Below, piece by piece: positions 24,072 through 46,791 of a stretch of DNA of 54,733 bases (positions are counted from its first letter, which is position 1; each line of letters opens with the position of its first letter). The DNA comes from Sulfurospirillum arcachonense DSM 9755 (lineage in GTDB: Bacteria; Campylobacterota; Campylobacteria; Campylobacterales; Sulfurospirillaceae). A model generated the notes under the pieces. That model was not told the DNA's origin, did not search any database, and saw only the letters and a list, made by a program, of their open reading frames with translations. The stretch spans positions 1 to 54,733 of the forward strand of contig NZ_JFBL01000019.1 of the NCBI RefSeq assembly GCF_000597725.1. The letters are read 5' to 3'. Position numbers and translations under genes: made by a program.

Positions 24072-25478
24072 TTAAATGATAAAGAATCCAAGTAATACTA
24101 GAGCTCCTAGATAAATTGCTCCAAAGATAAATCCTAATTTCCACCATGTTGCTTGAGATATATATCCCGCACCATACCAGATAGGAGATGGTCCTGTTGC
24201 ATATGGAGTTAAGATACCCATAAGACCAAGTGAACCTACAAGTAACATTGCAAGAGGTTGCATCATATCAGCTGGGATAAGGTTAGCTGCTACTCCTAAG
24301 AAAAGAGGAAGTAAAGCAACAGTATGAGCTGTTACACTTGCAAAGAAGTAATGGAATACAAAGAATAGAACTACAAGTAAAATAACGATTGTAACTGGTT
24401 CCATTCCTACTAGACCTTCTGAAATAAGTCCAGCTGCCCATTTAAGGAATCCAACTTTTTTAAGTCCTCCAGCCATAGCAACTAATGTTGCGAACCAGAT
24501 AAATACGTTGAATGCACCTTTATTAGTGATAACATCTTCCCAAGAGATAACTTTAGTTAGTACTAAAAGACATAAAACAGCTAGTGCTGCAGTTGTACCA
24601 TTAACACCAATTTGTTTACCAAAAATCCACATAACAAGAGCTAACATACCAAGACCTAGCATTAAAAGTTCTTTGCTAGTAATAGAACCCATTTTTCTAA
24701 GTTCTTCTGCTGCCCAAGCTGGAGCTTCAGGAGATGTTTTTTGTTCAGGTGGATAAACAATATAAGTTAATAATGGAACTGCTAAAAATAGAGGAATCAT
24801 AATTATTGCTAAAGTTCCAAACCATTGTCCCCACTCAATTGCAATACCTGTACTTTTTTCTACTAAAGAAACAGCTAGTAAGTTAGGAGCAAGTGCTGTT
24901 AAGAACATTGAACTAGTTACACAAGTTGCTGCAATTGCTACCCATGAAATATATGCACCAAGTTTTCTTGGTTCATTTTCAGGAGTTGAGTTAAACATTT
25001 GTGGGATATTAATAGCGATAGGAAAAATTGTACCCGCACTTCTTGCTGTATTTGAAGGCATAAATGGTGATAAAACACCATCAGCAAGAGCAACAGCATA
25101 ACCAAGACCTAGTGAAGTTTTACCTAGTAATTTCACAAGTAAAAGAGCTATTCTTTTACCTAGACCACTTTTTTTGTAACCTAATGCAAACATAAATGCT
25201 GCAAAAATTAACCAGATAACGCCATTTGAAAAACCACTAAGTGCCCAAGAACGACTTGCTTTTGCAGTTTCACCTACTAAACCAAACGTTGCTGAAAAGG
25301 CAACACCTGTTAAACCAATCAATGCTGCTGGAATTGGCTCTAAGATTAAAGCCACGATAACAGTTAGAAATACTGCAAAAAAGTATTGCGCATTTACATC
25401 CAAGCCCGCTGGTGTTGGTAAAAGAGCTACAACGATTCCTACCAATAATGGTATAATCATTTTAACTGTATTACTCAT
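24072..25478 (-). CDS. DASS-family (SLC13-like) dicarboxylate/anion:Na+ symporter
   Basis: A 468-residue polytopic membrane protein with about 11-13 helices. It carries the family's first substrate/Na+ loop PFMPSNTARSAGTIFPIA and the C-terminal counterpart ILTPYATGPSPIWYGAGY, with LEPIPAALIGLTG near the N-terminus. Family members take up C4-C5 di- and tricarboxylates or sulfonates with sodium, or exchange them. It most resembles the 2-oxoglutarate/malate (SodiT/CitT) branch. It is divergent from a sensor-kinase/regulator pair at 25600-28455, which may control it. A TATAAT (25511-25516 on this strand) and a GGAGACAA ribosome-binding site precede the start. The exact substrate is unknown. Confidence 0.88.
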   Translation of the reverse strand: MSNTVKMIIPLLVGIVVALLPTPAGLDVNAQYFFAVFLTVIVALILEPIPAALIGLTGVAFSATFGLVGETAKASRSWALSGFSNGVIWLIFAAFMFALGYKKSGLGKRIALLLVKLLGKTSLGLGYAVALADGVLSPFMPSNTARSAGTIFPIAINIPQMFNSTPENEPRKLGAYISWVAIAATCVTSSMFLTALAPNLLAVSLVEKSTGIAIEWGQWFGTLAIIMIPLFLAVPLLTYIVYPPEQKTSPEAPAWAAEELRKMGSITSKELLMLGLGMLALVMWIFGKQIGVNGTTAALAVLCLLVLTKVISWEDVITNKGAFNVFIWFATLVAMAGGLKKVGFLKWAAGLISEGLVGMEPVTIVILLVVLFFVFHYFFASVTAHTVALLPLFLGVAANLIPADMMQPLAMLLVGSLGLMGILTPYATGPSPIWYGAGYISQATWWKLGFIFGAIYLGALVLLGFFII

Positions 25479-25510
25479 AATTGTCTCCTTTTGATATTTG
25501 AATTCCCGAA

Positions 25511-44233: not shown

Positions 44234-44734
44234 ATGAAAACCATTTATCTTATTCGTCATGCAAAATCTAGTTGGAATGAAATAGGAATTAGTGATTTTG
44301 AAAGACCGTTGAATAAAAGAGGTAAAAGAGATTTACCATATATGGCAGATAGACTAAAAAAATTTAAAATAAAGCCTGATTTAATCCTTTCAAGTCCTGC
44401 AAAAAGGGCACAAAAAACAGCCAAAGTTATAGCTGAAACTATTGGCTATGATAAAGATGAAATCTCTTATAAAGAGTCACTTTATGAAAGTTCTTACACC
44501 ACATATAGATATTTATTAGATTCTCTTAGTGATGATTTAAATTCTATTTTTATAGTAGCGCATAATCCTACTTTAACAGATGTTGGAGAGAGATTAAGTG
44601 GAGCAATATTAACAAATATTCCAACTTGTTCTATAGTTTGCATAGAGTTTGATGTAGAAAGTTTTCAAGATATAAAAGAAGAGAGTGGTAAAATTATGTT
44701 TTTTGATTATCCTAAAAAACATAATATAGAATAA
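44234..44734 (+). CDS. sixA: Phosphohistidine phosphatase SixA-like
   Basis: A 166-residue histidine-phosphatase-superfamily protein. The N-terminal catalytic RHG-type motif is MKTIYLIRHAKSSWNE. The second catalytic region is LILSSPAKRAQKTAKVIAE, and the second histidine is in IFIVAHNPTLTDVG. SixA removes phosphate from histidine in phosphorelay proteins (ArcB-type HPt domains or PTS NPr). No HPt protein is near, so the target is open. A strong AGGAGAACA site precedes the start. It meets the next gene stop to stop at 44734/44735. Confidence 0.88.
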   Translation: MKTIYLIRHAKSSWNEIGISDFERPLNKRGKRDLPYMADRLKKFKIKPDLILSSPAKRAQKTAKVIAETIGYDKDEISYKESLYESSYTTYRYLLDSLSDDLNSIFIVAHNPTLTDVGERLSGAILTNIPTCSIVCIEFDVESFQDIKEESGKIMFFDYPKKHNIE

Positions 44735-45202
44735 TTATTTAGTTTTAAAGATAAAAACTCCTGCTTCATCTCCCAAAACTACTTCCGCTCTCCAAATCAT
44801 ATTTCCTACTATACATGTAGGAAGGGTTGTTGTAGCTGTGTAGAGGTTTTGAGAAACTTTTTTCATTTTTAAATCATAATATCCCATATTCATATTTGTA
44901 GCAAATATATGTAAGTCTAATGTTTCTTTTAAAATATTGTCTTGTGTTGTAAGTTCAAAAATTAGTGGTTTCATGAGTGGAATAGATTTTGGTTTTATAT
45001 CAAAACTAATTTTACCATAAGAGGGTAAAGTAGCACTACAAGAGTTTACATGTAAATCACAGTTTTCAGGTTGCTCATAAAATTTGATATCATTTTTAAA
45101 ATAAGAACTTATAGTGGTATGATCAACCAACAGATACAATGCAATACACAAAACGGCTACTATTTCTAAAGAGAGTATTATAAAGAATTTTTTATTTTTC
45201 AT
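44735..45202 (-). CDS. Membrane-anchored periplasmic protein of unknown function
   Basis: A 155-residue protein with one N-terminal membrane helix (about residues 6-25) and a periplasmic domain of about 125 residues that looks beta-rich. It contains a cysteine pair in NCDLHVNSCSA and a conserved-looking end (LPTCIVGNMIWRAEVVLGD). The layout, with a single helix and a small beta domain, recalls FixH/YtkA-like proteins that sit near copper or oxidase assembly genes, but I cannot confirm this. TACATGTA lies at 44812-44819 and 45047-45054. No partner gene is adjacent. Confidence 0.7.
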   Translation of the reverse strand: MKNKKFFIILSLEIVAVLCIALYLLVDHTTISSYFKNDIKFYEQPENCDLHVNSCSATLPSYGKISFDIKPKSIPLMKPLIFELTTQDNILKETLDLHIFATNMNMGYYDLKMKKVSQNLYTATTTLPTCIVGNMIWRAEVVLGDEAGVFIFKTK

Positions 45203-45336
45203 ACATGATTTTATACTAATATTGTTTAGAATATATTAAATTAGCGCTCAAACAACAAAGTAATAAAAATATTATAAATTATAATTAATTTAATAATTAA
45301 AGTACTTAATTTATATTAAAGGAATATAATAACTTA

Positions 45337-45425
45337 TAGTGGTTCAGGTATTGTGGATAGTAGTATGTGTAACCTCCTTTTGATAGTAAAAAGGGGAATT
45401 TACGTTTCCCTTTTTACCTTTTTGA
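45337..45425 (+). ncRNA. Candidate small RNA upstream of the helicase gene
   Basis: This sits in the only gene-free stretch above 300 bases (45203-45531). A TATAAT at 45325-45330 predicts a start near 45337. The span has GGTT (45341-45344) able to pair with AACC (45371-45374), an unpaired CCUCC-containing segment, and a strong terminator hairpin at 45388-45415 followed by ACCTTTTT. No open frame with a ribosome-binding site fits. The helicase has its own TATAAT downstream of the hairpin, so this would be a separate transcript of about 90 bases. I know of no family match. Confidence 0.4.
45388..45415 (+). terminator. Rho-independent terminator hairpin before the helicase gene
   Basis: Stem AAAAAGGGGAA / TTTCCCTTTTT (8 Watson-Crick pairs plus GAA/TTT) with loop TTTACG, followed by ACCTTTTTG. 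An upstream CCTTTT (45376-45381) could pair with AAAAGG (45389-45394) instead, excluding this hairpin. Confidence 0.7.
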
Positions 45426-45436
45426 ATAAATTACGC

Positions 45437-45442
45437 TATAAT
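45437..45442 (+). promoter_or_regulatory. Probable -10 element for the helicase gene
   Basis: A perfect TATAAT that would give a leader of about 83 bases before ATG 45532. No clear -35 (TTTACC at the right distance). Confidence 0.5.
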
Positions 45443-45531
45443 CATCTCCCATTTGAACAATCTAACCTTTTAAAAATTTTCTTTGAACTTGGTAATTGTC
45501 AACAGGATTCAATAAAAAAAGGTTAATTAAT

Positions 45532-46791
45532 ATGTCATTTACAAAACTTGGTTTATCAAAACCACTTTTACAAGCAATACAAGAGCAAGGTTATACAGAG
45601 CCAACGCCAATACAAAAACAAGCAATACCAATTATTTTATCAAAAAAAGATGTACTAGCAGGTGCTCAAACAGGTACGGGTAAAACAGCTGGTTTTACAC
45701 TTCCTTTACTAGAACTTTTAGGAGAACATGCTCAATCAAAAGGAAAACATCCCGTTCGTGCACTTATCTTAACTCCTACAAGAGAGTTAGCAACCCAAGT
45801 ACATGAAAGTGTTCTTACTTATGGAAAACATCTTCCTTATAAATCAACTGTTGTTTTTGGAGGAGTTGGAATCAATCCTCAAATAGGAAACTTTAGAAGA
45901 GGGGTAGATATAGTAGTAGCAACTCCAGGAAGACTACTTGATCATATTGGAAGAAAAACAGTTAATTTATCAAAAGTGGAGTTTCTTATATTAGATGAAG
46001 CAGATAGAATGCTTGATATGGGTTTTATTAATGATATTAAAAAAATCTTAGCACTCTTACCTAAAAACAGACAAAATTTACTATTTTCTGCAACATTTTC
46101 AGATGATATAAAAAAATTAGCAGATAGTTTATTAAATAAACCAGCTCTTATAGAAGTAGCGCGTAGAAATACGGCTTCTGAGTTAGTAGAACAATTAGTT
46201 CATCCTGTTGATAAAGATAAGAAAAGGGCTCTTTTATCGAAGTTAATCAAAAAAGGTGATTGGAAACAAGTATTGGTTTTTACTAGAACAAAACATGGCG
46301 CTAATAAGCTCAGTGAGCAATTAGCAAAAGATGGTATAACTTCTGCTGCAATTCATGGAAATAAAAGTCAAGGAGCAAGAACAAAAGCACTAGCAAACTT
46401 TAAAGCTGGTAGCATAAGAGTTTTAGTTGCAACTGATATTGCTGCTCGTGGGATTGATATCGACCAACTGCCTCATGTCATTAATTTTGAGTTACCTAAT
46501 GTTTCAGAAGATTATGTTCACCGTATAGGAAGAACTGGTCGTGCAGGAAGTGAAGGTGTAGCTATCTCTTTGGTATGTGTTGATGAGCTTCAATATTTAA
46601 AAGATATAGAAAAACTTATCAAAAGAAAAATACCACAAGAGAGAATTGAAGGATTTGAGCCAGACCCAACAATCAAACCAGAACCAATAAAGAAAAAATC
46701 AAACTCAAGAAATCGTCCAAGAAATAAAAAGCCAGATGCAAGACCAACTACTTCTCGTAGTTCAGTATCAAGATCAAGTAGAAGTAGATAA
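45532..46791 (+). CDS. rhlE: DEAD-box ATP-dependent RNA helicase (RhlE-like)
   Basis: A 419-residue RNA helicase. The motifs are in order: Q motif [14 protein letters not shown], motif I AQTGTGKT, Ia PTRELA, Ib TPGRLLD, motif II DEAD ([11 protein letters not shown]), III SAT, IV-V ([25 protein letters not shown]) and [11 protein letters not shown] basic Ser/Arg-rich tail ([17 protein letters not shown], then [10 protein letters not shown]) probably aids RNA binding. The start ATG 45532 follows AAAAAAAGG by nine bases; an upstream in-frame TTG lacks support. It remodels structured RNA, often needed in the cold. A long leader with hairpins precedes it. Confidence 0.95.

Follow-up and report, generated by a model that had tools for sequence, protein, structure and literature searches.

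Organization of the region upstream of the helicase gene

The window analyzed here is a stretch of 54,733 nucleotides from Sulfurospirillum arcachonense DSM 9755 (contig NZ_JFBL01000019.1), a genome of 2.66 Mb (99.99% complete) that is apparently of a free-living bacterium. It contains a gene for an RhlE-type DEAD-box RNA helicase (45532-46791, plus strand; PF00270 and PF00271) that starts with an ATG at 45532 and whose nearest named records are from Campylobacteraceae, Arcobacter and Sulfurimonas assemblies. The locus studied is the gap between this ATG and a divergent upstream gene (44735-45202, minus strand), which encodes a 155 amino acid protein without a Pfam match. A histidine phosphatase gene (44234-44734, plus strand; PF00300) converges on the latter and is a possible source of read-through transcription. 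For part of this gap, 45325-45430, an initial annotation had suggested a small RNA with an exposed CCUCC segment and two mutually exclusive hairpins, acting either in trans or as a conditional leader of the helicase gene.

The helicase promoter is located at 45429-45442 (plus strand, -10 in ATTACGCTATAAT); it is conserved in the sister species and similar promoters are found across Campylobacterota. Its -10 box GCTATAAT (45435-45442) lies downstream of a terminator, which agrees with the annotated order of the two elements. Among the genus genomes examined, only two (G003 and G004) encode an orthologous helicase, with 87-91% identity, and the 14-base promoter ATTACGCTATAATC is letter-identical in the window and in both of them. 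In record L062 the helicase is 87% identical but has a different upstream region that lacks the ATTACGCTATAATC promoter.

The terminator and its counterparts in sister species

The predicted intrinsic terminator occupies 45386-45424 on the plus strand. It is built of the stable hairpin GTAAAAAGGGGAATTTACGTTTCCCTTTTTAC (45386-45417, 14 pairs), with a predicted energy of about -16 kcal/mol when folded alone, and of the U-rich run CUUUUUG (CTTTTTG in the DNA) directly after it. This is the strongest intrinsic-terminator-like site of the whole window, and the strong terminator that had been placed before the helicase was thus confirmed. The surrounding DNA, from 44.0 to 47.5 kb, holds 8 terminator-like sites compared with 1.2 in shuffled sequences.

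Positional counterparts of the terminator are found in G003 and G004, where the ATTACGCTATAATC promoter is immediately preceded by a hairpin (about -13.9 kcal/mol), which itself follows a same-strand FeS-assembly gene (PF01883). The window shares with this tandem-gene arrangement the GC-richer stem, the U-run and the place before the same helicase promoter; it differs in having no same-strand gene within 650 nt before the terminator. An orthologue of the PF01883 gene is absent from the window's genome, in which a paralogue (31%) from a different contig is the best match, and a search for a remnant of the gene in 45191-45540 with tblastn gave chance alignments only. The 44735-45202 gene, for its part, is located elsewhere in the sister and other genomes, with other flanks. 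As the terminator hairpins of the window, G003 and G004 align only loosely, the homology of the three rests on their position and on the adjoining promoter. That the hairpin is kept in the sister species, but after another gene, points to an inherited terminator and not to a conserved small RNA. In the G004 spacer that separates the helicase from the PF01883 gene (L033, minus strand) we also observed a long inverted-repeat element of ~270 nt with the ends GACCTTAAGCACCATCTATA.../...TATAGATGGTGTGTAAGGTC, which is possibly a small mobile element.

One could also regard the terminator as the end of a long plus-strand transcript that starts at the phosphatase gene 44234-44734 and runs antisense through 44735-45202, the CCTCC segment being then a part of its 3' UTR. 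This would fit the head-on contact of the two genes (44734/44735) and the finding that, from the phosphatase stop codon up to 45386, all terminator-like hairpins are weak. Yet some of these weak hairpins, at 44802-44824, stand in the path of such a transcript, which would also need ~650 nt of unprotected antisense RNA, and the counterparts of the terminator occur in species with a different upstream gene. We find this origin improbable.

The proposed RNA and its candidate promoter

The proposed transcript would be an RNA of 88 nt (45337-45424, plus strand), a candidate that is marked by its fold and by a step in GC content and that has no homologue or Rfam match. Its predicted start at ~45337 follows from the candidate -10 TATAAT that can be read at 45325-45330 (plus strand). 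The annotated promoter-like box is indeed present, but it is at chance level in the AT-rich spacer and is uninformative as promoter evidence: the intergenic DNA of the window has 3.5 copies of TATAAT per kb on each strand, and a sigma-70 scan gave 19 promoter-like sites compared with 18.7 in shuffles, so that an own promoter better than chance was found by neither measure. The -10 consensus of C. jejuni is gnTAnaAT (PMC3847290); the helicase box fits this consensus, whereas the candidate -10 AATATAAT lacks the g.

At the predicted start the GC content rises from 13% (45205-45335) to 36% (45336-45385). The RNA 45335-45424 has a predicted fold of -25.2 kcal/mol with a z of -2.9 against shuffles, and it is the terminator hairpin that makes the region exceed them. 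The most stable predicted structure is composed of a 5' hairpin (GGUU...AACC, 45341-45374, plus strand), a single-stranded UCCUUUUGAUA and the terminator. The stability of the 5' hairpin is matched by 2.8% of shuffles when 45337-45376 is taken, but by 25% when 45337-45385 is taken. The anti-Shine-Dalgarno-like segment AACCTCCTTTTGATA spans 45371-45385 (plus strand). The CCUCC segment that had been described as exposed is present as AACCTCCTTTT at 45371-45381; in the predicted fold, however, the AACC at 45371-45374, which adjoins CUCC, pairs with GGUU in the 5' hairpin and only UCCUUUUGAUA at 45375-45385 remains single-stranded. On both strands of the window, CCTCCTT occurs three times and ACCTCCTTT twice.

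The second hairpin of the proposed pair can also be drawn: CTCCTTTT/AAAAGGGG (45374-45396, plus strand, 8 pairs) makes use of the CCUUUU/AAAAGG pairing, and the CUCCUUUU/AAAAGGGG hairpin forms in nascent RNA that does not yet include the 3' arm of the terminator. When forced, this alternative gives -15.7 kcal/mol compared with -25.2 kcal/mol for the terminator fold. Being ~9.5 kcal/mol weaker, it is expected to prevail only for a short time, until the 3' arm has been transcribed; the hairpins do exclude each other, but as modelled the two folds are not a balanced switch.

These two folds are also what a helicase attenuator would use, where transcription from 45337 stops at the terminator, or reads through when CUCCUUUU pairs with AAAAGGGG. 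The nature of the gene would suit such a control, as DEAD-box helicases are a class that is often cold-induced. However, the two exclusive folds are far apart in stability, the element is not conserved, and the RhlE leaders of other lineages sit between promoter and ATG. Here the terminator precedes the conserved helicase promoter, and the helicase mRNA therefore need not cross it. A conditional leader is thus disfavoured, and we consider attenuation very improbable.

The stretch of about 90 bases had been described as lacking a coding frame, and this does not hold: a frame of 57 codons, from a GTG at 45353 to 45526, passes through the segment, the terminator and the helicase promoter. Its product was rejected as a small protein, since the frame crosses both of these elements, has no Pfam match and nothing suggests a gene. 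A minus-strand gene that would use AAAAGGAGG (complement of 45373-45381) as its Shine-Dalgarno (SD) sequence was rejected as well, with no start codon within range.

Distribution of the RNA body

The body of the proposed RNA (45337-45385) gave no homologue in 6 genus, 44 family and 397 class genomes, nor in plasmids or phages, and its exact 23-mer is absent from viral contigs. The CCTCC segment and the 5' hairpin were likewise found in no other genome of these three sets. Of the structure that had been expected to recur in relatives, only the terminator hairpin does so, in G003 and G004 and after another gene. The best family matches (L156 and L157) are antisense inside a histidine-kinase gene and the best class match (L169) covers part of the 3' end of a protein gene that by eye resembles FliG; all were dismissed as chance level. 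In Rfam 15, the best match was below threshold (18.8 bits compared with a gathering threshold of 50); it was to rli61, which was rejected as the RNA family together with sraA (16.6-17.0 bits, threshold 56).

For the most part, C. jejuni and H. pylori do not share their ncRNAs, and genome reorganisation was suggested as a process that may create and remove such RNAs (PMC3847290). Because Campylobacterota sRNAs are typically species-specific (PMC3847290), the missing conservation only lowers the sRNA claim. The candidate resembles the 29 ncRNAs of C. jejuni (PMC3847290) and RepG of H. pylori (PMC8295292) in being short (30-100 nt), intergenic and not conserved between species. RepG base-pairs, as the candidate would, to a purine-rich sequence, a G-repeat within the leader of an mRNA (PMC8295292). 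Unlike these RNAs, which were detected experimentally, the candidate is known from sequence alone.

Possible targets of the anti-Shine-Dalgarno-like segment

Target prediction covered the genes of the window and was complemented by genome-wide pattern searches. The segment CUCCUUUUGAUA (45374-45385) is perfectly complementary to UAUCAAAAGGAG, which is located 6 nt before the ATG of a PF00939 transporter gene (24072-25478, minus strand); in other words, the ribosome-binding site (RBS) TATCAAAAGGAG (25485-25496, minus strand) is a perfect 12-nt complement of CTCCTTTTGATA. Three perfect 12-nt copies exist genome-wide besides the locus itself, and only the one at 25485-25496 lies at an RBS. We estimate that SD-like purine runs make roughly one RBS match of this kind likely in each genome, and this match is therefore a lead and not evidence. 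The genome has five sites of the form AAAGGAGGT-ATG; the reversed-pattern control gave more (13), and the count is uninformative.

Within the window, the predicted pairing of the segment with start regions exceeds that of shuffled versions (1.3%), as would be expected of any SD-complementary segment. The pairing with the helicase start region has a bare duplex energy of -28.9 kcal/mol, and 0 of 300 query shuffles were as strong; when the self-folds of both RNAs are counted, it stands at only ~5% against shuffles.

These results bear on the possibility that the locus encodes a lineage-specific trans-acting sRNA of ~88 nt, made of the 5' hairpin, the single-stranded UCCUUUUGAUA and the terminator, that silences mRNAs by covering their RBS. 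Its best candidate target would be the PF00939 transporter gene and its second the neighbouring helicase, and it could have originated from a chance promoter that arose ahead of an inherited terminator. The GC step, the fold z, the sole RBS among the perfect genomic matches, the pairing with start regions and the species-specific nature of Campylobacterota sRNAs, which may arise in genome reorganisation (PMC3847290), are all in line with such an RNA. Against these stand the failure to find a homologue in any genome or database searched, the off-consensus -10 at chance level, the expected number of RBS matches and the modest helicase pairing. We see a trans-acting sRNA as a doubtful but not negligible reading; of the two roles initially proposed it is the more probable, though unproven, and such an RNA would at best be very young. 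If it is an sRNA, it can be compared to NfeR1/alpha-r14 of rhizobia, in which an unpaired anti-SD segment of the CCUCC type blocks start regions, including those of transporter mRNAs (PMC10746234). NfeR1/alpha-r14 has three hairpins each with CCUCCUCCC and is conserved across alpha-rhizobia (PMC10746234), whereas the candidate, from another bacterial class, does not belong to this family: it is unconserved and has a single, partly paired CCUCC with one 5' hairpin and a terminator in place of three CCUCCUCCC hairpins.

Leaders of helicase genes

If the helicase has a conditional leader, the candidate for it is 45463-45525 (plus strand) and not the 45325-45430 element. This part of the 5' leader includes ~50 nt that are missing from the sister species and has at its two ends the arms of a perfect 9-bp inverted repeat, TAACCTTTT (45463-45471) and AAAAGGTTA (45517-45525), with a predicted fold of -12.5 kcal/mol. 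In this model, pairing of TAACCTTTT with AAAAGGTTA would sequester the helicase SD. The same genome encodes another DEAD-box helicase (G000:C13, L052), with a leader of ~200 nt upstream of its start codon that is strongly conserved in the genus. It is also present in L037, L047, L050 and L051, with the pattern CAAGACTTC...CAAGACTGACAAA...AGCAAGCTAGTAGGTTTTT.CATACTAGTTGC, and gave no Rfam family match.

Outside the genus, many leaders of RhlE-type orthologues have in common a structure that is absent from the window gene. In it, the loop of a 5' hairpin, which reads CGGUC, CAGUC or CAAUC, is joined by base pairing to a bulge (GACCG, GACUG or GAUUG) of a 3' module, GCCU..GAYYG..[hairpin]..AGGC, which is located just before the SD, and the result is a pseudoknot. 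We analyzed 16 leaders from records labelled Campylobacterota, Beta- and Gammaproteobacteria, Cyanobacteria, Desulfuromonadales and Chlamydiae (L064:2874-2981, L078:1583-1697, L087:2869-2967, L092:2871-2984, L106:2891-2978, L114:2886-2981, L115:2887-2981, L117:2890-2982, L119:1672-1751, L123:2865-2968, L127:2890-2982, L131:2890-2982, L130:2822-2939, L133:2822-2942, L137:2828-2942 and L140:2861-2972). The loop-bulge helix is 94.8% paired, a percentage that is inflated because the leaders were chosen for showing the motif, with two-sided changes in three of its six pairs. The covariation of three loop types carries more weight, and the covariation score of the whole structure was reached by 0 of 500 shuffles. 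A covariance model of the leader (R1) matches three leaders outside the training set (L136, L121 and L082) and does not match the leader of the window helicase; its lack of matches in 200 class genomes is uninformative given the weakness of the model. No Rfam 15 family matches this leader, and in the literature searched we found no paper that describes it.

We infer that the pseudoknot leader presumably controls translation of the helicase. In one gammaproteobacterial assembly, the RhlE-type helicase has a cspA thermoregulator (RF01766, 93 bits; L123:2278-2703, minus strand) upstream in divergent orientation, which suggests a cold-response neighbourhood. The window element and these leaders have in common the gene family and the idea of a regulatory leader; the leaders lie between promoter and ATG and hold a covarying pseudoknot, whereas the window gene has no pseudoknot and the candidate element precedes the promoter.

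Discussion

The explanation that best fits our data, with a probability of roughly 0.57, is that 45386-45424 is an intrinsic terminator that was inherited together with the helicase promoter, has lost its original gene and now serves as an insulator. It accounts for the strongest terminator-like site of the window, for the counterparts before ATTACGCTATAATC and the missing PF01883 gene, and for a body without homologue behind a -10 of chance quality. In the ancestral state the terminator would have stood between the same-strand PF01883 gene and the helicase promoter, as it does in the sister species. The PF01883 gene would then have been lost and the upstream side replaced, while terminator and promoter stayed with the helicase. 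The terminator may now shield the promoter at 45435-45442 from plus-strand transcription, which could come from read-through of 44234-44734 or from spurious initiation within the AT-rich spacer. Some short RNAs may terminate at this site, but we found no evidence that they have a selected role as regulators. That it terminates transcription in vivo, that it acts as an insulator and that events took this order are all inferred. Against an inherited terminator stands, besides the loose alignment of the three hairpins, that the rise in GC from 13% to 36% and the presence of a 5' hairpin are traits of RNA genes; it is also somewhat surprising that a strong terminator stays unchanged without any upstream RNA.

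A more specific option is that a small RNA was born here. Gene loss would have left the terminator, a chance promoter would have given rise to the 88-nt RNA, and its anti-SD segment would act via the RBS to repress the PF00939 transporter, a member of the sodium:sulfate/dicarboxylate symporter family, and possibly the neighbouring helicase. The birth of sRNAs in genome reorganisation was offered as a possible explanation for ncRNAs of this group (PMC3847290), and the full scenario is a long shot.

The pseudoknot leader of RhlE-type helicases across phyla looks more important than the candidate sRNA and deserves its own study. If the locus holds only an inherited terminator, it is an ordinary one, and it shows how sRNA predictions of the "promoter plus terminator" kind can arise from gene reshuffling. 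If it is transcribed, it would be a tractable case of the birth of a species-specific sRNA in Campylobacterota, with a concrete and testable target.
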